A stretch of 61,241 bases of DNA from Bacteroidota bacterium (GTDB lineage Bacteria > Bacteroidota > Ignavibacteria > Ignavibacteriales > Ignavibacteriaceae): positions 1 through 61,241 of the forward strand of contig JADFPP010000010.1 in assembly GCA_022562275.1 (NCBI GenBank), given 5' to 3'. Below, piece by piece: positions 3,944-61,241 of the stretch (positions are counted from its first letter, which is position 1; the number at the start of each line of letters is the position of its first letter). The notes under the pieces were generated by a model, which worked only from the letters and a program-made list of their open reading frames with translations, had not been told where the DNA came from and searched no databases. Both the position numbers and the translations under genes were made by a program.

Positions 3944-5062
3944 ATGACTGAACCGGGGTTGTTTACATTAGGCGTAGAAGAAGAATTTCAGATAGTTGAT
4001 CCTGAAACGGGAGAGCTTCGTTCACGTGTTCAGGAAATTCTGGAAGATGGAAAAGTGATCCTTGCAGAAAGGGTGAAACCTGAGATGCATCAATCTGTTG
4101 TTGAAATGGGAACAGATATTTGCCGGAATATTCACGATGTCCGTGACCAGGTTACGGATTTACGAATGAAATTATCAAAGCTTGCGAAAAAAAACGGCTT
4201 AACAATTGCAGCTGCCGGCACGCATCCGTTTTCACACTGGAAAGATCAGAAAATAACCGATCAGCAGCATTATAAAGAAATCGTTACTGATATGCAGCAG
4301 GTTGCAAGGGCAAACCTGATCTTCGGGCTGCACGTTCATGTTGGTGTTGACGACAGGGAAACTGCACTGCATATTATGAATGCTGCCAGATATTTTCTTC
4401 CGCATATTTTTGCACTTTCAACAAACTCTCCATTCTGGTTAGGAAGAAATACAGGTTTTAAATCTTACCGAAGTAAAGTTTTTGATAGATTTCCAAGAAC
4501 GGGAATTCCTGATTACTTTGGAAGTATAGCTGAATATGACAACTTTGTTAATCTTCTTATTAAAACTAAATGTATTGACAGCGCGAAAAAAATCTGGTGG
4601 GATATAAGAGCTCATCCCGTTTTTAAAACACTCGAATTCCGCGTGTGTGATATTCCCATGCGCATTGATGAAACAGTTTGTCTCACTGCAATTGTTCAGG
4701 CAATAGTTGCAAAACTTCATAAGCTAATTAAACAAAACCTGGGATTCCGCCTGTACAGAAGAGCACTTATTGCCGAGAATAAGTGGAGAGCTGCACGTTA
4801 CGGAATTCAGGGCAGATTAATTGATTTCGGCAAAAAGAAAGAGGTTGAATTTAAGCAGTTGGCAAATGAGCTTTGCGAATTTGTAGATGATGTGGTTGAT
4901 GATTTAAATTCTCGTGAAGAAGTAAATTATATTAGAAAAATTCTTGAAATGGGTACCGGTGCCGACCGGCAGCTTAAAGTGTTTGAAGACACCAACGATT
5001 TAAAAAAAGTTGTTGACTATATTGTTGAAGAAACGCATAGAGGGCTTTCGGTAAAAAAGTAA
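3944..5062 (+). CDS. Carboxylate-amine ligase, GCS2/YbdK family
   Basis: A 372-residue member of the GCS2 family (glutamate-cysteine ligase type 2, YbdK-like), which has a glutamine-synthetase-like fold and forms gamma-glutamyl or similar amide bonds with ATP. Diagnostic motifs are TLGVEEEFQIVDPETGEL at the N-terminus (metal-binding glutamates), GLHVHVG (about 127-133), SPFWLGRNTGFKSYR (about 162-176) and FPRTGIPDYFG. Length is normal for the family. E. coli YbdK has only weak glutamate-cysteine ligase activity, so the true substrates are open. The neighbouring ATP-grasp genes make a two-step ligation, as in glutathione synthesis, a reasonable guess. Spacing is 16 bases upstream and 27 downstream, consistent with one transcript. 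Confidence 0.9.
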   Translation: MTEPGLFTLGVEEEFQIVDPETGELRSRVQEILEDGKVILAERVKPEMHQSVVEMGTDICRNIHDVRDQVTDLRMKLSKLAKKNGLTIAAAGTHPFSHWKDQKITDQQHYKEIVTDMQQVARANLIFGLHVHVGVDDRETALHIMNAARYFLPHIFALSTNSPFWLGRNTGFKSYRSKVFDRFPRTGIPDYFGSIAEYDNFVNLLIKTKCIDSAKKIWWDIRAHPVFKTLEFRVCDIPMRIDETVCLTAIVQAIVAKLHKLIKQNLGFRLYRRALIAENKWRAARYGIQGRLIDFGKKKEVEFKQLANELCEFVDDVVDDLNSREEVNYIRKILEMGTGADRQLKVFEDTNDLKKVVDYIVEETHRGLSVKK

Positions 5063-5089
5063 TTGTAGTGGTAACTAAAATCAATAATT

Positions 5090-5929
5090 ATGGAAAAACA
5101 AAAAATAAAAATAACTACAATTGATTTATATGATAATGAACGCAATGAAGGTATGCGTTGTATTCGTGAAATTATTGTGGATGCACAAAATAAATTTAAG
5201 GATGTTCAGCTAACATATAATGTTTACGAAACAAGGTATAAAGGCGATGTGCCTAATCTTGATTACGATATTTACATCTCCTCAGGTGGTCCGGGAAGTC
5301 CGTTTAATGGTAACGGAACAAAATGGGAAAAAGATTACTTTAATTTGATTGATGCAATTTATAATTACAACAAAAATTACAGCGATAAAAAAAAATATAT
5401 ATTCTTTATCTGTCATTCGTTTCAAATGATGGCAAGATTTTTTGAATTCGGAGAAGTAAGTAAGCGAGACTGGAAATCATTTGGTGTTATGCCTTTTACC
5501 CAAACAAAAGAAGGCGAAAATGATTCCATCCTGAAGGAGTTATCAAATCCGTTTTATGCAGCGGATATCAGGCAGTATCAAGTTACCAATCCGAATAAAA
5601 AAAATATTGAAGAACTTGGAGCAAAGATTTTATCGTTCGAAATGGTGGATGATAACAGGGGGAATAACCCAGCAATTGCTGTTGTAAGGATTAGCAGCGA
5701 GATTGCAGGTGCTCAATTTCATCCTGAAGCAGATCCGGAAAGTATGCTTTACCATTTTAATAAGCCGGAAGAGAAGAAACAAATTATAGCTACATACGGC
5801 AAGCAAAAATATCATCGAATGATAGAAATTTTACAAGAACCAAATGCAATTAGACTCACACGTAAAACTGTAATACCAAATTTTTTAAATCAAGCTATTG
5901 ACGAACTAAGCAAGGTTTTGATACAATAA
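5090..5929 (+). CDS. Class I glutamine amidotransferase-like protein
   Basis: A 279-residue protein with the class I GATase layout: YISSGGPGSP (oxyanion region, about 62-71), nucleophile C108 in FFICHSFQMM, and the His-x-Glu pair H211/E213 in GAQFHPEADPE. The triad is therefore complete. The elbow reads C-H-S-F-Q instead of the more usual C-x-G-H-Q, marking a distinct subfamily. Such enzymes normally hydrolyse glutamine and pass ammonia to a partner, but some cleave gamma-glutamyl bonds of other molecules. Placed between two ligases and only 3 bases from the next gene, it may feed ammonia to one of them or trim a gamma-glutamyl intermediate; both are inference. Confidence 0.82.
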   Translation: MEKQKIKITTIDLYDNERNEGMRCIREIIVDAQNKFKDVQLTYNVYETRYKGDVPNLDYDIYISSGGPGSPFNGNGTKWEKDYFNLIDAIYNYNKNYSDKKKYIFFICHSFQMMARFFEFGEVSKRDWKSFGVMPFTQTKEGENDSILKELSNPFYAADIRQYQVTNPNKKNIEELGAKILSFEMVDDNRGNNPAIAVVRISSEIAGAQFHPEADPESMLYHFNKPEEKKQIIATYGKQKYHRMIEILQEPNAIRLTRKTVIPNFLNQAIDELSKVLIQ

Positions 5930-5932
5930 TTT

Positions 5933-7108
5933 ATGATCCCTCATCTTCGAGAGAAATTTAATTCTGAGTTTAAACAAGAGACCTATAATAATTTCTTAAC
6001 TGATTTAAATTCAATCCTAAAATATCCTGTAGATTTTAGAGTTGCAGAAACACCAATTTTCTTACCTGATAATTTAAAATCCGAAATAATCATAGCATGT
6101 AATGGTTTACTTGAACAGATCCGGAGTGATAATTTTAAAATTAAATCGCAGGAAGCAATCCCAAAAGAATTTGAAGTGCCAAACACCAGTAATCATCCTG
6201 AGTTTCTTCAAATTGATTTTGCAATTTGTAGGAACGCTAATGGTAATTATGCACCAAAGTTAATCGAGCTGCAGGGTTTCCCTTCTGTTTATAGTTATCA
6301 ATTCTATCTTCATAAACTTTTTGATGAGTATTATAACCTCGATAATAATCTTAGTCCGTATTTTAGCTCTCTTGATGATGATACCTATAAACAAAAACTA
6401 AGAAATATAATAGTTGGAGATACCAATCCGGAAAATGTAATCTTATTAGAAATACAACCGGAAAAACAAAAAACAAGAATTGATTTTAGTGCTACTGAAG
6501 AATTATTCGGGATTACAACTGTCAGTATTTCTGATGTAATACAAGAAGGTAAAAAACTATACTATCAAAAAGCTAATAAAAAAATTTCGATTGAACGAAT
6601 ATATAACCGGGTAATTTTTGATGAAGTGGAACGAAACAATGTATCATTTAGCTTTGATTTTAGAGATGAATTAGATGTAAAATGGGTGCCTCATCCAAAT
6701 TGGTTTTATTTGATAAGTAAGTATTCATTGCCAATGTTAAAAGGAGAATGTGTTCCGGATTGTTTCTTTCTGAATAATTTAGATACAGTTCCGGATGATT
6801 TAACCCGGTTTGTACTAAAACCTCTCTTTTCTTTTGCCGGACACGGAGTTGATGTTGATATTACAAAAGAAAAGCTTGAAGCAATTACAGACCCTGAAAA
6901 TTACATACTTCAGCAAAAAATTGAATATGCACCTGTAATTAAAACACCTGATGAATATTCTAAAGTTGAAATAAGGATGATGTTTTTTTGGGATGAAGAA
7001 CCGCTGCTTGTAAATAATCTTGTAAGAATGAGTAAAGGTAAAATGATGGGAGTAGATTTTAATAAAAATAAAACCTGGGTTGGTTCAAGCCTGGCATTAC
7101 ACTATTAA
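5933..7108 (+). CDS. ATP-grasp-like protein, second of the cluster
   Basis: A 391-residue protein without a family I can name with certainty. A C-terminal block looks like ATP-grasp: RFVLKPLFSFAGHGVDVDI (lysine plus glycine-containing loop, about 288-306), then ENYILQQKIEYAPVI and KVEIRMMFFWDEE. The middle contains KLIELQGFPSVYSYQ (about 109-123), a pattern seen in permuted ATP-grasp/glutathionylspermidine-synthase-like proteins. No signal peptide or membrane segment is seen. It starts 3 bases after the amidotransferase stop, so translational coupling is likely. A 117-base gap separates it from the GH13 gene. Best description: ATP-dependent ligase-like, substrate unknown. Confidence 0.6.
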   Translation: MIPHLREKFNSEFKQETYNNFLTDLNSILKYPVDFRVAETPIFLPDNLKSEIIIACNGLLEQIRSDNFKIKSQEAIPKEFEVPNTSNHPEFLQIDFAICRNANGNYAPKLIELQGFPSVYSYQFYLHKLFDEYYNLDNNLSPYFSSLDDDTYKQKLRNIIVGDTNPENVILLEIQPEKQKTRIDFSATEELFGITTVSISDVIQEGKKLYYQKANKKISIERIYNRVIFDEVERNNVSFSFDFRDELDVKWVPHPNWFYLISKYSLPMLKGECVPDCFFLNNLDTVPDDLTRFVLKPLFSFAGHGVDVDITKEKLEAITDPENYILQQKIEYAPVIKTPDEYSKVEIRMMFFWDEEPLLVNNLVRMSKGKMMGVDFNKNKTWVGSSLALHY

Positions 7109-7225
7109 TTTGATCTAATAATAAATGTATTTTAGAAATATCTTTACAATTATTTTTTATAATGAAGTGAATTGCAATAATCTTGAATTTTTCATCTCTA
7201 TTGATTTCAATTTACATTATCAAAT

Positions 7226-10200
7226 ATGATAAAATACGATTTCCACATATCCAAATCTGCCAGGATCAAGTATAAGTTCGATGAATCATTTTATTCATTG
7301 AATGGTAATTTAATTATTGCCAACTCTCAGGCTGCACGTTACATTTCTACCAGGATTAATAATGTTAGAAAAAGTGAAGGCGCATATGATATGTTAGTCA
7401 CTACCGGAGAAATTAATGCATTAGGAGTATTGCACGAAGTTTACCACTATTTACTAAACCAATATGCTGAAAGTGAGAACCCGGGTGTAATCCAAAGAAG
7501 CATTGAATATCTGACCTCAACATTAAAGGAAGAGAGATTAAATAAAGTACTTCTCAGTTTCGTTACTGAATTTCCTCCACTTGATGTATATAAAGGAATT
7601 ATAAAATCAGAAGAATATTTAAAAGGTAAAACGAATAATAAAGCAAACAGAGAAATAATTCTTGAAGAATTAATCGTACTTTACTTCGAAAATAATAATC
7701 CGGCTGCTGACCGGTTAAATGAATTATTTTCAGATAAGAACTTAAAAGAAAATTCCCCTTATACAGAATTAATAAATAAAACTGAAAAGTTTTTTGATAA
7801 TGAAAAACCAACAGGAATTGGGGGTTTGCATTTATTTTCGATGTTTCGCAAACCAATTACCGCTTACCCTTATAACCTGGAAGAACAATTACTGTTTATA
7901 AAAAATGAGTGGGGCTTAATTTTAGATAGCAAACTCCTAAACAAGTTGCTGAAAGGTACTGATCTAATCAAGGAGGATTATAAATTATTTATTAAGCATG
8001 GAGGTGGTGAAAAAGCAACTCCTCCCGTTCCTGATTACAAACACGAAATTGAACAATTGAAAGCGATAGGTAAGAAAAAATCTGAAGATGATCCTATAAT
8101 CCCCTTAACCGAAGCAGAACAATTCACAGAAGATACTCACTGGATGTCTGATGTAGTGATGATAGCAAAAAATATTTTTGTTTGGATGCATCAGTTATCA
8201 GAAAAATACGGATACGAAATAAAAAGATTGGATGAAATTCCCGATCAGGAATTAGATCAACTGGCAGAATGGAATTACACAGCTTTATGGATGATCGGGA
8301 TCTGGGAAAGAAGCAATGCCAGTAAAAAAATTAAACAAAAGATGGGAAATCCCGAAGCCGCTGCGTCTGCATACTCTTTGTACGACTACGAAATTGCCGC
8401 GGAACTCGGCGGTGAAGAAGCATTTAATAATTTTAAACATCGAGCCTGGCTAAGAGGCATTAGATTAGCGAGTGATATGGTGCCCAATCACACAGGAATT
8501 TATTCTAAATGGATGATTGAGAAACCTGAATATTTTATAAGAACTGCTATTCCACCTTTTCATAATTATTCATTCACCGGTGATAATCTTTCCGATAATG
8601 AGAGAGTTGAAATAAGAATTGAAGATAAATATTATACCCACGAAGATGCCGCAGTTGTGTTAGAGAGAAAGGATAATCAAACCGGGGAAAGGGTTTATAT
8701 ATATCACGGTAATGATGGTACAAATATGCCATGGAACGATACTGCACAGTTAAACTTGCTTAACCCTGAAGTAAGAAGCGCACTTATAAACGTTATTAAA
8801 CATGTAGCACAAAAAACACCCATTATCCGCTTTGATGCTGCAATGACTTTAAGTCATAAACATTTTCAACGTTTATGGTATCCGGAACCCGGCTCGGGCG
8901 GAGCTATTCCATCCCGTTCAGATTACTCCATGACGAAAAAGGAGTTTTACAAACAGATACCCGTTGAGTTCTGGAGAGAAGTGGTTGATACTATTAACGA
9001 AGAAATGCCGAATACTTTACTTCTTGCAGAAGCTTTCTGGTTAATGGAAGGATATTTTGTACGCTCACTTGGAATGCACCGTGTTTATAACAGCGCCTTT
9101 ATGCATATGCTGATGAAAGAAGAGAACGATAAATATAGAAAGCTTATAAAAAATACATTGGAATTCAATCCTGAAATCTTAAAACGTTATGTAAATTTTA
9201 TGAGTAACCCGGATGAAGAAACAACTGTTAATCAGTTCGGGAAAGGTGATAAGTACTTTGGAGTGGCAATGATGATGGTAACTTTGCCGGGTCTTCCAAT
9301 GTTTGGACACGGACAGATAGAAGGATTTTCAGAGAAATATGGTATGGAATATAAAAGAGCTTATTACAACGAAGTTGTAGACGAGCATCTGGTTTGGAGA
9401 CATAAAAAAGAAATATTTCCTTTACTAAAGATGAGACACATTTTTAGCCAGGTGGAAAACTTTGAGCTATATGATTTTATTGATGGCAATGGAGAAGTGA
9501 ATGATAATGTTTTTGCCTATAGTAATCATTCGGGAAATGAAAATGCTCTTGTAATATACAACAACTCGTATCAAACTTTTGAAGGTGCAATTAAGTATTC
9601 AAACCCAAAAATGAATAATCGCACAATTCAACCCGGCAGGGACATTGCTTCAATATTTGACTTTAAACTGAACCCCGTTTACTACTATATTTATACAGAC
9701 CATAGAACTCAACTTCAATTCCTGTTATCCGGCAAAGAATTAAATGAGAATGGATTCAAAATAAAAGTGTTTGGCTACCAATACCGAATTTGTCTTAACT
9801 TTAGTGAAGTATATGATATTGATGGCAAATATGAAATACTAAACTTACATTTAAATGGCAGAGGTGTTGTATCTATCGACGATGCCTTATTGGAAATGCA
9901 TATGACCCCACTCCACAGCGCATTGGAAGAATTATTGGCTCCTCCGAATATACGAAAGATCAGGAATTATATTTTTCAATCGGAAGGTAATGTTAAAGTA
10001 AACAAGAAAATTAAAGATCAACCCGTAACAAATTCAATTAAGTACGGAGTATCTGCGCTAATTAATGAAATGAAAAAATATAAATCCGGCATCGCTAATA
10101 ATGGCAAACTTGAGAAATCACTGAATAATACGTTAATAAACACAAGGGAATTTTACAGGCTGTGGAACAGGTATAACAATAGAAAAACAGTTACTAAATG

Positions 10201-54913: not shown

Positions 54914-55038
54914 AAAGGGAATTGTATTAGTTAAAATGCTCTATCCGTATAAAATATTAGCTATGGATTTTGATAGTAGCAAAAAATAATATTTGTAATT
55001 GAAGGCGTTTCTCTACACAAATGCGAATTGGCTTATTT

Positions 55039-55120
55039 GACTAACATCATATAATTGCTATTATTCGTTTTATGAGTTAAATTTCTGTTAAAACGTATTG
55101 CGTTTATTGAGATGTTATGC
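55039..55120 (+). repeat. attC-like inverted repeat upstream of the lone gene
   Basis: TAACATC (55042-55048) is the exact inverse of GATGTTA (55111-55117). The outer seven-mers GACTAAC and GTTATGC have the TAAC/GTTA cores of integron attC R boxes. The 82-base length suits attC. Inner pairing is imperfect. Listed because a second such site follows the gene in the same orientation. Confidence 0.35.
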
Positions 55121-55147
55121 ACAAGGTAAACAGAAAAAAGAGAAAGT

Positions 55148-56260
55148 ATGAATAAAAACGAATTTAAACTGAAACTTTCAAGTATTAACTCAGCAATAAG
55201 TGTAACTGGAAAAAAATATAGTTCCATTCAAGTATATGGAGACAGTATTGAATTTGTAAGAGAAAATAAAACTAAATCTGAGAGCATTTCAATTACTGAA
55301 TTATTTGAATTATTCACAAAAGAAAATTCCATTAATACAACTATTGCGAAATTGTATATTTCTGGCAGAGTACAATCTCCTGCTGTTGCAATTTTGAATG
55401 AATTGAAATCAAGAGCGACTAATAATACTTCAAAAAAAATAATTACTGATTTTCAAGAAAAACCAATTATCGAAAATAAAAAACAGAAACAATCTAATAA
55501 CAAAATTAAGGATGAAACTCGATTTTTTATAGCATTATCAGAACTTATAGGAAAAGATTATTTACTTTCTAAAAGTATCGGTAAACCAGTAAATTCATCA
55601 CATTTTTTCTTGTCAAATAATTTTGAGAGTTATAATTTTAATATGGAAGTAAATGAATGCTATTGGAAAATCCTAACAGACTTGAAATCAAACAAACAAT
55701 TTAGTTCTGATAGTTTATCTCATCATATTGATGGTATAATTTATAATCATCCTTTATTGAAAAGTAGAATTGTTGAATTTGATGAAGAACAGCATTTTAC
55801 ACCAGCAAGAATGGATACAATAAAATATCTCAAAGAAATTTTACCGAATAATTATTTTTCTAAATTCACGGAGATTTGTAGAGACAAAAACTATTTGAAT
55901 GATTATGTATTAAAAAAACATAGGATTAAAAATAAATTAGAAAATGTTCCAAAATCATTTATTGAATTTGTAAAGTGGTTAGAGCAATCAAATGAAAAAT
56001 CATCTGGTTACATTTGCAATAAAAATGGTTTTGAGTTTTTATGTGGTCGCATTGCTCAAAGAGCATATTACGATTGTTTGAGGGATACAGCACATTTATC
56101 TGATAGAAACAAAGGATTTGAAAGTCCATTTCGTTTTTCTAAAAAGTCATTTGAAGATATAGAAAAAGTTGATTTTTCATCAATATCAAATGAACGAATT
56201 AAAGAAATAATAATTGAAATATTGAATAATGACTACGGAGTAAAAATACCCAGTGCATAA
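55148..56260 (+). CDS. Unknown protein, possible nuclease, candidate gene-cassette cargo
   Basis: A 370-residue, lysine/asparagine-rich soluble protein; no signal peptide or membrane segment. I do not recognise the family. The first ~140 residues end in a charged linker (KKQKQSNNKIKDE). The centre has HHIDGIIYNHPLLKSRI followed by VEFDEEQHFTPAR (about 191-218): an Asp, then an E-x-D-x-x-Q group after ~15 residues, recalling PD-(D/E)XK-type nucleases. Later blocks are CGRIAQRAYYDCLRDTAH and FESPFRFSKKSFE. Base composition looks even more AT-rich than the neighbours. The stop codon lies inside the GCATAAC box of the following attC-like repeat, as is common for integron cassettes. Transfer is inferred. 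Confidence 0.55.
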   Translation: MNKNEFKLKLSSINSAISVTGKKYSSIQVYGDSIEFVRENKTKSESISITELFELFTKENSINTTIAKLYISGRVQSPAVAILNELKSRATNNTSKKIITDFQEKPIIENKKQKQSNNKIKDETRFFIALSELIGKDYLLSKSIGKPVNSSHFFLSNNFESYNFNMEVNECYWKILTDLKSNKQFSSDSLSHHIDGIIYNHPLLKSRIVEFDEEQHFTPARMDTIKYLKEILPNNYFSKFTEICRDKNYLNDYVLKKHRIKNKLENVPKSFIEFVKWLEQSNEKSSGYICNKNGFEFLCGRIAQRAYYDCLRDTAHLSDRNKGFESPFRFSKKSFEDIEKVDFSSISNERIKEIIIEILNNDYGVKIPSA

Positions 56261-56386
56261 CACGCAATATAAAAAATTGGGCAGATAGTGGTAAATATGA
56301 ATGAATTAGCAATAAATATACGGTGTGGTAAATTGAAAGATTGGTGTTCCAAAATGCCCAACTTTTCATATTGCCAACCGTTAACC
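56255..56386 (+). repeat. attC-like inverted repeat downstream of the lone gene
   Basis: A 132-base structure with three nested pairs: GCATAAC (56255) with GTTAACC (56380; first four and last bases match), GCAATAT (56264) with ATATTGC (56368), and TTGGGCA (56277) with TGCCCAA (56355). Pairs two and three are perfect; spacers of 6 bases on each side separate them, leaving a 71-base loop. R''-L''/L'-R' boxes with spacers and a variable loop are the attC design. GCATAAC is also the exact inverse of the GTTATGC box before the gene. No T-run follows, so it is not a simple terminator. Confidence 0.45.
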
Positions 56387-57514
56387 AAGAGCCCTCTCAA
56401 CATCCTCAATCAAATCCTCAACATCCTCAATACCAACGGAGAAACGAACGAGTCCATCAGTTAATCCAAACTTTTCTCTGTCCTCTTTTGGAACCGTTGC
56501 GTGTGTCATGCTTGCAGGGTGGGAGATAAGACTTTCAACTCCGCCCAAACTTTCTGCAAGTGTAAATACCTTAACATTATTTAAAACCTTTTTTGCTTTT
56601 TCAAGCGAGCCGAAATCTGCAGAAACCATTCCCCCAAAACCGCTCATTTGCTGCTTTGCAAGTTCGTGCTGAGGATGAGATTTTAATCCGGGATAGATAA
56701 CTATTTTCGCCATATCAGATGCAACAAGAAAATCTGCAAAAGTTCTTGCATTTTCATCATGCTGTTTCATTCTTACAGCAAGTGTTTTTGTTGCACGTAA
56801 TATCAGCCAGCAATCAAATGGAGAAGGAACACCACCGACAGCATTTTGAATGTACGTGATTCTTTCATTAACCTTTTCATTACTTGTAATTAGAATACCG
56901 CCGATTACATCGCTATGTCCGTTTAAATATTTTGTTGTGCTGTGAAGAACAATATCAATTCCAAACTTTAGAGGATTTTGAAAATACGGACTCATAAAAG
57001 TATTATCACAAATACTTAGCAGATTATTTTTCTTTGCGATCGCTGCAACTCCTTTAAGGTCGGTTAAAACAAGCATCGGGTTGGTGGGAGTTTCAACAAA
57101 AACCATTTTTGTATTTTCTTTTATTGCTTTTTCAATATTGGAAAGATCACTTGTATCCACCCAGGAGAATTCTAAACCATAATTTGTCATATTCTGTTCA
57201 AACAGTCTGTAAGTACCGCCGTAAACATTATCTGAAACTATAATATGATCACCTTCTTTAACTAAGCTCATTAAAGCATGTGTTGCGGCTAATCCTGATG
57301 CAAAAGCAATTCCGTACTTTCCCTTTTCAAGTGCTGCAATGTTAGCTTCCATTGCTTCCCGGGTTTTGTTTTGTGTTCTTCCATACTCGTAACCTTTATG
57401 TTTACCCAATTCATCCTGCTCATAAGTGGATGTTTGATATAAAGGTGTGATCACTGCTCCTGTTACAGGATCGGATGTTTGTCCTGCATGTATTGCATCT
57501 GTTGAAAAGCCCAT
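56381..57514 (-). CDS. Cystathionine gamma-lyase/gamma-synthase (PLP, Cys/Met metabolism)
   Basis: A 377-residue PLP enzyme of the Cys/Met-metabolism family. It begins FSTDAIHAGQTSDPVTGAV and has YEYGRTQNKTREAMEANIAA, FVETPTNPML, and the PLP lysine K195 in HSTTKYLNGHSDVIGG; SLGGVESLISHPASMTH is the C-terminal substrate motif. Gamma-lyase and gamma-synthase cannot be separated by motif alone. Directly downstream of a cystathionine beta-synthase gene, gamma-lyase activity (cystathionine to cysteine) is the likelier role, completing reverse transsulfuration. Its stop touches the attC-like repeat. Confidence 0.93.
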   Translation of the reverse strand: MGFSTDAIHAGQTSDPVTGAVITPLYQTSTYEQDELGKHKGYEYGRTQNKTREAMEANIAALEKGKYGIAFASGLAATHALMSLVKEGDHIIVSDNVYGGTYRLFEQNMTNYGLEFSWVDTSDLSNIEKAIKENTKMVFVETPTNPMLVLTDLKGVAAIAKKNNLLSICDNTFMSPYFQNPLKFGIDIVLHSTTKYLNGHSDVIGGILITSNEKVNERITYIQNAVGGVPSPFDCWLILRATKTLAVRMKQHDENARTFADFLVASDMAKIVIYPGLKSHPQHELAKQQMSGFGGMVSADFGSLEKAKKVLNNVKVFTLAESLGGVESLISHPASMTHATVPKEDREKFGLTDGLVRFSVGIEDVEDLIEDVERALG

Positions 57515-57530
57515 AATTTTTCCTTTTTTT

Positions 57531-57613
57531 CTTCGTGAAACTCAGTGCTCTAAGTGTCTTCGTGGTGAGAAATGCTTTACCACTAAGTCACAAAAGACAC
57601 TAAGAACCACTTA
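57531..57613. repeat. Dispersed repeat B, copy 2, inside the transsulfuration gene pair
   Basis: The arms CTAAGTGTCTTCGTGGTGA and TTACCACTAAGTCACAAAAG plus GACACTAAG are related to each other and to the arms at 29017-29143. It fills the 100-base gap between the two genes. As a hairpin in a shared transcript it could lower expression of the downstream gene; that is inference. Confidence 0.55.
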
Positions 57614-57614
57614 G

Positions 57615-58982
57615 TTATTCTTTTGCATCAAAATGAATTAAATCGTAACGTGTGATAATATCTGTTATCAATCCAAAATCACTTACTAATATTGCTGCAT
57701 TTTCTTTTAACACGATTTTCACTTCCGAAATATCCGTCTTCGCATCCAAAGTAGGACAGCACTCTTCCATAACTTCTTTTACAGTTCCATCAATTAAACC
57801 GGGATCATTAACAAGTTTTTTCATTAACTTATTTTCAATTACACATCCAATCGCTTTTCTTCCCACCATTACCGGAATATGAGAGAAACCTTTTTCATTA
57901 ATTAATTGAACTACATCTTTAATTTTCACATCATCTTTAACATACGTTATATCCCCAATGCCACGCCCTTTTTTCGCATCTGATATATCTCGTAAAGTTT
58001 TAATTTCAGAATCAAGCAACCGGTTCATCTTTAACCATTCCAAATTATGACCTTTGGATAAATATCTTTCACCGGTATCGCAAACAATAAATACAACAAC
58101 ATCATCTTCGGATAAATCTTTTGCAATTTCTAATGCAACATGAACTATAGTACCGGTACTTGCTCCGCAAAAAATTCCCTCTTCACGCGTAAGTTTTCTT
58201 GCAGCACCGAATGAGATCTTATCACTTACATTAATAATTTTATCAATGTACTGGAAATGCACATTCTCCGGCAAACAATCCTGACCAATTCCTTCAACTA
58301 AGTAAGGAGTTCCCTTTATTATTTCTCCTGTTTCTTTGTAATGTTTAAAGATCGAACCAAATGGATCGGCACCAATAACTTGAATATCAGGGTTTTTCTC
58401 TTTTAGAAATCTGCCTATACCACTTATAGTTCCACCTGTTCCAATGCTTGAGACAAAATAAGTTATTTTACCATCAGTCTGTTTCCAAATTTCCGGGCCT
58501 GTTGTTTTGTAATGTATTTCAGGGTTGGCTGGATTGGAATACTGATAAGCGAATATGGAGTTCGGTGTTTCTTTGTGAATACGTTCAGCTACATTCATAT
58601 AATATTCCGGATCATCGGGTTCCACCATATTTGAAACAACGATCACCTCCCCGCCGAAGGCTTTTAAATAATTGATCTTTTCAGAGCTAACTTTATCGGT
58701 AACAACAAATATTGATTTATAATCTTTTACAGCAGCAATAAGTGCGAGCCCGATTCCTGTGTTGCCGCTTGTAGCTTCTATTATTGTGCCGCCGGGTTTT
58801 AGCTCACCGTTAGCCTCAGCGGCTGTTATCATCGCAATGCCAATACGATCCTTAACGCTTCCACCGGGGTTTGCCGACTCTAGTTTAGCAAAAATTTGCG
58901 GTTTTAATCCTTTATTGATCTTGTTAATTCTGATAAGTGGTGTATTTCCTATTTGATCAATAATGCTGCTTTTATATTCCAA
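57615..58982 (-). CDS. cbs: Cystathionine beta-synthase with C-terminal CBS domain pair
   Basis: A 455-residue PLP enzyme: serine + homocysteine to cystathionine. The N-terminal catalytic domain (about 1-320) has IGNTPLIRINKINKG, PLP lysine K44 in ESANPGGSVKDRIG, EATSGNTGIGLALI and SSIGTGGTISGIGRFL. Unlike cysteine synthase (about 310 residues), it carries two CBS repeats at about 335-455 (GDITYVKDDVKIKDVV to FGLITDIITRYDLI), the regulatory module seen in eukaryotic and actinobacterial CBS enzymes. No N-terminal haem domain. Genes for this and the gamma-lyase form a likely operon. Confidence 0.92.
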   Translation of the reverse strand: MEYKSSIIDQIGNTPLIRINKINKGLKPQIFAKLESANPGGSVKDRIGIAMITAAEANGELKPGGTIIEATSGNTGIGLALIAAVKDYKSIFVVTDKVSSEKINYLKAFGGEVIVVSNMVEPDDPEYYMNVAERIHKETPNSIFAYQYSNPANPEIHYKTTGPEIWKQTDGKITYFVSSIGTGGTISGIGRFLKEKNPDIQVIGADPFGSIFKHYKETGEIIKGTPYLVEGIGQDCLPENVHFQYIDKIINVSDKISFGAARKLTREEGIFCGASTGTIVHVALEIAKDLSEDDVVVFIVCDTGERYLSKGHNLEWLKMNRLLDSEIKTLRDISDAKKGRGIGDITYVKDDVKIKDVVQLINEKGFSHIPVMVGRKAIGCVIENKLMKKLVNDPGLIDGTVKEVMEECCPTLDAKTDISEVKIVLKENAAILVSDFGLITDIITRYDLIHFDAKE

Positions 58983-59078
58983 TAATTACTCCTAACAACA
59001 ATTTATAAACCCCAAAATAATTTTTGCCTAATTATAAGCAATAGTTATTAATGATGAAAGATATTTGTAATAAGTGTT

Positions 59079-59424
59079 GAATAATTTACGAGCATTACAT
59101 CTAATTATCTAATCACATTTAAAGGCACCACTGAAGAAATGAAATTGGGAAACGATTTATGTTTTCTGATTTGGAATAAAATGTATTGCGTTGCCGGACT
59201 TGAGCCACCGCTAACAGTTTCATTTAAAGTTCAGCCGGAAGAATTTATTGAACTAACAAACAAAAACGGTATTATTCCTCCTCCTTATCTTGCAAGATAT
59301 AAGTGAATACTGGTTGAGAATGTAAACAGTTTAACAAAAAAAAGAATGGGAACACTATATCAGACAATCTTATGAACTTATTAAATCAAAACTTCCCAAA
59401 AAGATACTAATCCAATTGGAGTAA
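59079..59424 (+). pseudogene. Decayed MmcQ/YjbR-family gene
   Basis: The 504-base gap after cbs contains the remains of a small MmcQ/YjbR-like protein. From 59118 the frame reads FKGTTEEMKLGNDLCFLIWN, KMYCVAGLEPPLTVSFKVQP, EEFIELTNKNGIIPPPYLAR, then YK-stop at a TGA (59313-59315) where TGG (Trp) is expected. It goes on ILVENVNSLTKK, then an extra A in an 8-A run shifts the frame, after which EWEHYIRQSYELIKSKLPKK follows to TAA 59424. The N-terminal start is also out of frame (NLRALHL near 59080). At least two lesions, so not expressed as a whole protein. MmcQ/YjbR proteins are DNA-binding-like and of unknown role. Confidence 0.75.
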
Positions 59425-59486
59425 CTAATAATCAATTATTAAAGATTTATTACCGGGCTGTAATCTTTATCACGCTTACACATTAA

Positions 59487-60395
59487 TTATCTATTATTTA
59501 ATCCTTTTATCCAATCCAAAATAATTTTCATCGCATCAGGTGAAAATGTTTCCTCAATCTTCCCATATTCCAATGGCAATCCTGTTTCTGCTGTTTGGAA
59601 TAAATGATTTAACCCCTGTAATTCCACCGTTTTGAAATTTTGATTGCCGCCTTCCTTTAGTGCCTTTTCAATTGCGGATAGATTCTCCTTCGGCGGAACC
59701 TGAAGATCTTTCTCCCCGATGATTGCTAGGACAGGACACTTAACTTTTGTTAACATTGGATAAGGATCGTATCTAATAAAGAAAGTAAACCATGGACTCA
59801 GTAATGTTTTTATTTTATTCTCCAGAAATGTCTCTTTATCTTTTATCCCTTCCTTTTCTTTATCACTCATCTTATTATAGTGTTCTTCGAATAATTTCCG
59901 CAGAGTGCTATCAGCAATAATACTATCTTTTTCAATTAGGATAACGTCATATATTTCCCTTGATAGCTTCAGGTTTTCTTTTAACTCTTCCTCATCCATT
60001 TCATTTGCTTTGTTAATGAGTTCTGTTTGAAGCATCAGTATTTCATCTCCGGGTAAACCGGGTCCGGCCATTAATACTATAAACGCAACATCTTCAGATT
60101 CTACTGCTACCATCGAAGCAATAATACCACCTTCACTGTGTCCTGCTAAACCAATTTGCTTTGGATTTATACCACTTCTGGATTTTAGATATTCAACCGC
60201 TGAAAGTACATCGCCAGCAAAATCTTCACTGTTTGCTGATGAAAAATCTCCGGTGGACTCACCTACTCCTCTGTCATCAAAGCGAAGAACTGCAATTCCG
60301 TTTCTTGTAAGATAATCCGCTAAAACTAAAAACGCGAAATATACATTAGTAAATATTACAAAAGGTTTTGCTAATGTAATTTGGAAAATGGGTAC
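59487..60395 (-). pseudogene. Alpha/beta hydrolase, 5' end lost at the composition junction
   Basis: Reading left from about 60395, the frame gives FLVLADYLTRNGIAVLRFDD, RGVGESTGDF, LSAVEYLKSRSGINPKQ, then IGLAGHSEGGIIA (nucleophile Ser). It goes on through the Asp/His parts (CPVLAIIGEKDLQVPP and LQGLNHLFQ) to the stop at 59487. The first available ATG (60113) lies after the nucleophile motif, so it cannot be the true start. Upstream of about 60333 the translation no longer looks like the family (the usual VVLITGSG-type strand is absent), and GC-rich DNA follows. An in-frame stop occurs at 60450-60452. The remnant is the C-terminal two-thirds of an alpha/beta hydrolase (X-Pro dipeptidyl-type/DUF3887-neighbour class). 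Confidence 0.8.
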
Positions 60396-61241
60396 GACCG
60401 ATTTTACCGGGGGCGTGGGCCGAGGGTTGCTGGCGGGGCAGGTCCGGGGTCACTCGCATCCCAGAATCAGGTCGATTTCAGGCTTCTCACAACATCGTAC
60501 TGATAGGGCAGATCGATGGGGTTTTCGGCTCGTGCGAGATAGTGCCGGTGCATCGGGGCGTAGGCTGCATACGCGTCACGCAACGCTGGAATCGCGTCGT
60601 CCGAGAAGTCGACCCTGATATCGATCGGGAAGGGTTCGCCCGGCGCGGCGAGCATCAAGCAGGCGGACCGCTCTGCCAGGTGTGTGCCGCCTATCTCTTT
60701 CTGCCCCCCGGCCCCTTTTCCGCCTTCGAGCGCTGAGATCAATTGCTCGGCCAGCGACCTGCCCTGGCTACCGGCCTCGAACCCGGCAACCATCGCTTCG
60801 AGGACGTTCTCGCCAGCCAGAAAATTGCCGACGGCGACGCAGTTCTCGCCACTGACGTATCCGCTGAACGGTTTCGTGTTCGCACCCGAGTGGACCAGCG
60901 CATTGCCATCGGGCGTGAGCAGCGCCACTTGCCGGAACTCGGGGTGCGGGTCGTTCGCGACGGCCTGGTCGAGCGCGCCGGCAGGGTCGGCACCACCTTT
61001 CAGCAGTTCCATCAGTTCTACGCCAATGGCGGGATTTGTCGACGCCTGCGATGTTGCAACTCCCACGCCGGGCAGAATCTGCGGACAGGTCGCGCCAACT
61101 GCGAGGGAGTAGGTTCCGATTCCGATTCCGAGTTCGCCGTTCGACGGGTCCCGCCCAAGAATTGTGAAAGTCATTCCGCTATTTTAGGTGCGGGGCATCG
61201 ACGCGGCGTCGAACGACCGTCAATGTTGGCCGGGGCCGCGC
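60390..61241. other. GC-rich foreign block at the window end
   Basis: Base composition changes abruptly near 60390-60410 from AT-rich to strongly GC-rich and stays so to the window end, with codon usage to match in the DUF1028 gene. Apart from that gene, 60396-60466 and 61175-61241 hold nothing recognisable. No transposase, integrase, tRNA or direct repeat marks the border. A chimeric contig join is the simplest explanation; recent transfer is the alternative. Confidence 0.8.
60467..61174 (-). CDS. DUF1028 protein (Ntn-hydrolase-like), GC-rich
   Basis: A 235-residue protein starting MTFTILGRDPSNGELGIGIG, with VGATCPQILPGVGVATSQAS, ALVHSGANTKPFSGYVSG, NCVAVGNFLAGENVL and LEGGKGAGGQKEIGGTHLA (uses of Gly-rich turns). 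This matches DUF1028, a family of proteins thought to have an Ntn-hydrolase-like fold with no settled function. It is complete. Third positions are dominated by G and C, unlike any other gene in the window, and point to a high-GC bacterium, perhaps a proteobacterium. Its context here should not be used to infer function. Confidence 0.88.
   Translation of the reverse strand: MTFTILGRDPSNGELGIGIGTYSLAVGATCPQILPGVGVATSQASTNPAIGVELMELLKGGADPAGALDQAVANDPHPEFRQVALLTPDGNALVHSGANTKPFSGYVSGENCVAVGNFLAGENVLEAMVAGFEAGSQGRSLAEQLISALEGGKGAGGQKEIGGTHLAERSACLMLAAPGEPFPIDIRVDFSDDAIPALRDAYAAYAPMHRHYLARAENPIDLPYQYDVVRSLKST

Follow-up and report, generated by a model that had tools for sequence, protein, structure and literature searches.

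Contig C77, which is the whole window analysed here (61,241 bases, in a 148-contig genome of 3.40 Mb with completeness 100 and contamination 2.72), is very probably an inter-genome chimeric contig, an assembly artefact of an ordinary kind, to judge from its sequence. The contig breaks within a hydrolase gene and ends in a tail of foreign composition and kinship, a further part of that gene lies at the end of contig C23, and the corresponding gene order is found in one relative. The tail was most likely joined on during assembly, because the gene that it cuts off resumes at the end of a different contig of this genome. That two genomes were artificially joined had been proposed in the first-pass annotation, and this is supported by the gene part on C23, by the gene order in the relative (genome G002), and by the kinship of the tail; the location of the other part of the hydrolase gene is new. 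Chimeric contigs that combine species are known to arise in metagenome assembly (PMC3100316; PMC9661791).

Composition at the border

The GC content of C77 changes abruptly near its right end: it is 0.344 for positions 1-60335, 0.25 for 60336-60395, and 0.636 for 60404-61241. The shift from AT-rich to GC-rich sequence that had been placed near 60390-60410 is thereby borne out, as adjoining 400-base stretches near the border differ by up to 0.26, with the peak at 60406, while the maximum elsewhere in C77 is 0.18. Windows of 800 bases before the border have a mean GC of 0.344 (sd 0.033, maximum 0.436), compared with 0.631 for the tail. The GC-rich foreign tail (60404..61241, ~840 bases) carries a DUF1028 family gene of Dehalococcoidia type (60467..61174, minus strand) and runs to the contig end, which lies 67 bases past this gene. 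Foreign codon use had also been noted for the DUF1028 gene, and its GC3 of 0.72 indeed stands apart: 36 ORFs of 200 aa or longer, picked mechanically from the sequence before the border, average 0.276 and reach 0.334 at most.

Between the two sides lies an AT-rich filler of ~68 nt (60336..60403), which fits neither the hydrolase side nor the tail side. It contains an imperfect 12-nt inverted repeat that is weakly unusual, since comparable hairpins are present in 7 of 800 75-nt blocks of C77. The filler has no 16-base match in the other stretches of its own genome that were compared, and a DNA search of the own genome with the border and the tail returned the self-match, with no second copy of either.

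The interrupted hydrolase gene

The last native gene of C77 encodes the C-terminal part (~282 aa) of an alpha/beta hydrolase (59487..60335, minus strand; Hydrolase_4, E 6e-14), cut at its upstream end. When these 282 aa were searched in 59 genomes, own genome included, hits with E <= 0.001 were obtained in 50, many being weak or partial. Loci were fetched for the 19 best foreign matches, which share 52-61% identity with the query and sit within open frames of 474-600 aa (474-511 aa in 16 of the 19). Homology on C77 starts at ~60332, and none is found upstream in the window. In all 19 relatives the matching stretch is immediately preceded by HKP or HRP, and C77 breaks at the point where HKP would meet FLVLADYL. 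These results agree with the earlier description of a truncated hydrolase whose homology stops near 60333. The remnant keeps an open frame.

Downstream of the hydrolase, a PLP enzyme with a CBS domain is encoded at 57615..58982 (minus strand; PALP, E 8.6e-78; CBS, E 2.9e-8), for which the name cysK is our own reading. This cysK-type gene is a native neighbour of the hydrolase, as the same order is found in locus L011 of the same-genus genome G002, at 81% identity. A short YjbR-like ORF (59139-59306, 55 aa, E 3.4e-4) lies between the two genes; it scores 21.6 bits against a Pfam cut-off of 30.1 and is perhaps a decayed gene.

Continuation on contig C23

The missing part was sought in the own genome with the N-terminal 204 aa of the L011 hydrolase. 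A single match was found, at positions 3-326 of C23 (minus strand), which covers residues 12-116 and lies 2 bases from the contig end. On this 7951-base contig the hydrolase frame is open for 113 aa and runs off the left end, so that C23 stops within the gene, without foreign DNA. The genes next to it are those for a formyltransferase (fmt) and then peptide deformylase (def). A native continuation of C77 is thus located elsewhere in the same assembly.

In L011, cysK, the C-terminal part of the hydrolase, its N-terminal part and fmt are contiguous and on one strand. The 18 other fetched loci, taken with 1.5-kb flanks, contain both hydrolase parts and neither cysK nor fmt, so that cysK and fmt stand beside the hydrolase in 1 of 19. 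A search for fmt found it in 59 of 59 genomes, the match in the same-genus G003 being no more than weak; among the places listed for these genomes, only G002 has fmt adjoining the hydrolase, apart from the break described here. The order cysK-hydrolase-fmt in G002 agrees with both flanks of the break, and C77 should therefore continue into C23, not into the tail. Measured on the relatives, the gap between the gene parts on C77 and C23 is 255-270 nt by all 19, and 264 nt in 16 of them, where the nearer copy was taken for the three relatives that carry the N-terminal part twice. These comparisons make it most likely that C77 is followed by C23 in the actual genome, with ~264 nt between them, and that the tail is misplaced.

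The two hydrolase parts would also fit a real and recent insertion of Dehalococcoidia DNA into this strain's hydrolase gene, with C23 located beyond the insert. This is an improbable reading, however, as C23 ends inside the gene without foreign DNA, ~264 nt of the gene would have to be missing in addition, and the remnant on C77 retains its open frame. A variant in which the capture was very recent and strain-specific, with ~264 nt of the gene lost and the insert present in part of the population only, is just as improbable. Hallmarks of insertion are also lacking on the visible side: no tRNA gene is present in 55000-61241, no direct repeat within 60150-60520, and no recombinase among six window-end proteins scanned with Pfam. 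The first-pass annotation had likewise seen no mobile-element hallmarks at the border, and on the visible side this holds for tRNA genes, direct repeats and recombinases; the far border of an insert would lie past the contig end.

At its other end, C23 (locus L038) carries an integron integrase gene (7171-7950) that is cut by the right contig end and scores 303 bits with TIGR02249 against a cut-off of 265. The ORFs at 4612-6904 adjoin it, and the region may represent a chromosomal integron of this lineage.

Origin of the tail

The tail gene matches the DUF1028 family (PF06267) at E 2.5e-49, with 168.2 bits against a gathering score of 26.2, over model positions 1-193 of 193. A literature search on DUF1028 gave no paper. 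Across 84,980 species genomes, a pattern scan, which detects close relatives alone and is the one search that covered phyla beyond Dehalococcoidia and the own order, returned 89 stretches, two of which encode relatives of the tail protein, both from Dehalococcoidia. Among 393 genomes from the class of one scan match, 45 contain a match to the tail protein, and among 250 genomes from the order of the best match, 57 do; the best identity is 66% in each case. The searches of Dehalococcoidia (Chloroflexota), the own order and the pattern scan found no relative more than 66% identical, and the donor species of the tail was not found in these genomes. DUF1028 itself is common in the own order, with a match in 35 of 59 genomes (own included), and in this respect a real insertion would have brought in a family that the lineage already possesses. 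With the listed copies of relatives the tail protein shares 27-39% identity, and with the genome's own ordinary copy on contig C32 it shares 31%.

A tree was computed from 34 proteins, namely the tail protein and 33 chosen rows, which represent Dehalococcoidia and the own order only; loci L075-L086 were left out, and L036 and L037 duplicate the genes of L004 and L003. The tail protein groups with 13 other rows, all derived from the Dehalococcoidia searches, in a 14-row set (support 100/98). Eight own-order copies, including that of C32, form a separate set (99/97). The remaining 11 Dehalococcoidia rows group on the own-order side of the tree, which indicates that the DUF1028 family does not simply track the species tree. 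Within the 14-row set, the tail's closest attachment is weakly supported (86/43), and a long-branch warning was raised. By its sequence, the tail gene is placed with Dehalococcoidia out of the groups sampled here. A taxonomic assignment of 60467-61174 had been suggested earlier as a check on the join, and it places this stretch in the Dehalococcoidia set, apart from the C32 copy. By GC, GC3 and the DUF1028 tree, the two sides of the border are of different lineages. A native island of deviating composition, or a gene acquired long ago and since fixed in this lineage, would fit the presence of DUF1028 in relatives and is hardly credible, as G002 has cysK-hydrolase-fmt without the tail gene, the tail protein is only 27-39% identical to the listed copies of relatives and lies apart from them in the tree, and its GC3 is 0.72 against at most 0.334 in the rest of C77.

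How the join may have arisen

For a chimeric contig, everything up to 60335 would be native to the genome. The assembly of its genuine continuation would have halted within the hydrolase gene, leaving the rest of that gene to form the left end of C23, and C77 would then have been extended at its open end, via the short filler, into ~840 bases from a Dehalococcoidia-like organism. This donor would be an unsequenced organism, presumably from the same sample. The genome appears to be a metagenome bin, and the join was probably made by assembly or by a chimeric read, not by a cell. On the other hand, a simple overlap join does not account for the filler, and the supporting gene order comes from one genome (G002); both points count against a chimeric origin.

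Other GC-rich contig ends

Contig ends in the rest of the genome were surveyed for GC-rich sequence, defined as a 250-base window with GC of at least 0.52 in the fetched stretch, a threshold that was chosen after a first look. The survey comprised 140 contig starts, 134 of them readable, and 60 right ends; it excluded C77, C142-C148 and the majority of right ends. A GC-rich window is present at 6 of 134 readable starts (C7, C65, C103, C118, C131, and C137) and at 2 of 60 right ends (C29 and C86). For terminal 250-base windows the frequency is 4/194, compared with 2/1088 for interior windows when C7 is omitted (both in C86; Fisher p 0.006) and 6/1096 when it is included (p 0.05), and these windows are not independent. 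The excess is modest and suggestive only, and a modest excess is also what leaves some room for a real insertion in C77. The eight ends may be further chimeric ends, and each could be native or acquired.

The pieces found at these ends include an amidase end, a HAD-type phosphatase, PKD repeats, DUF502, and two glutaredoxins. Ribosomal RNA was considered as a cause and rejected, since nine loci (the eight ends and C23) gave no Rfam match at gathering score. A linker shared among eight GC-step joins (C77 and seven others) was also rejected, as only AT-rich matches of 11 to 12 bases were found, none with C77. The amidase piece at the left end of C103 has no second copy in the own genome; it is 48-62% identical to 12 own-order relatives and up to 64% identical among the Dehalococcoidia matches listed. 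In C7 (L045), positions 1-2450 have a GC of 0.40-0.65 over ~2.4 kb, followed by a sharp drop, and contain DUF502 and PKD-repeat genes; this may be a composite foreign end resembling the C77 tail. The right end of C86 (L260) has GC-rich patches at 1-800 and 1300-1900 amid AT-rich sequence, without an Rfam match, and these may be acquired genes.

Significance and comparison with known systems

The join matters for data hygiene and not for biology. Taken at face value, the gene call at 60467-61174 would falsely attribute to this lineage the horizontal gain of a Dehalococcoidia-type DUF1028 gene, and the hydrolase on C77 would falsely appear to be a pseudogene. The same scrutiny is merited by other contig ends of this genome.

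Compared with the DUF1028 family (PF06267), the tail gene is a typical full-length member with nothing unusual in the gene itself; it differs in that it would be a Dehalococcoidia-type copy in the wrong contig. As in an inter-genome translocation misassembly, C77 appears to unite two unrelated genomes on one contig. In contrast to the standard form of such an error, its join includes the ~68-nt filler, and its maker may have been either the assembler or a chimeric read.
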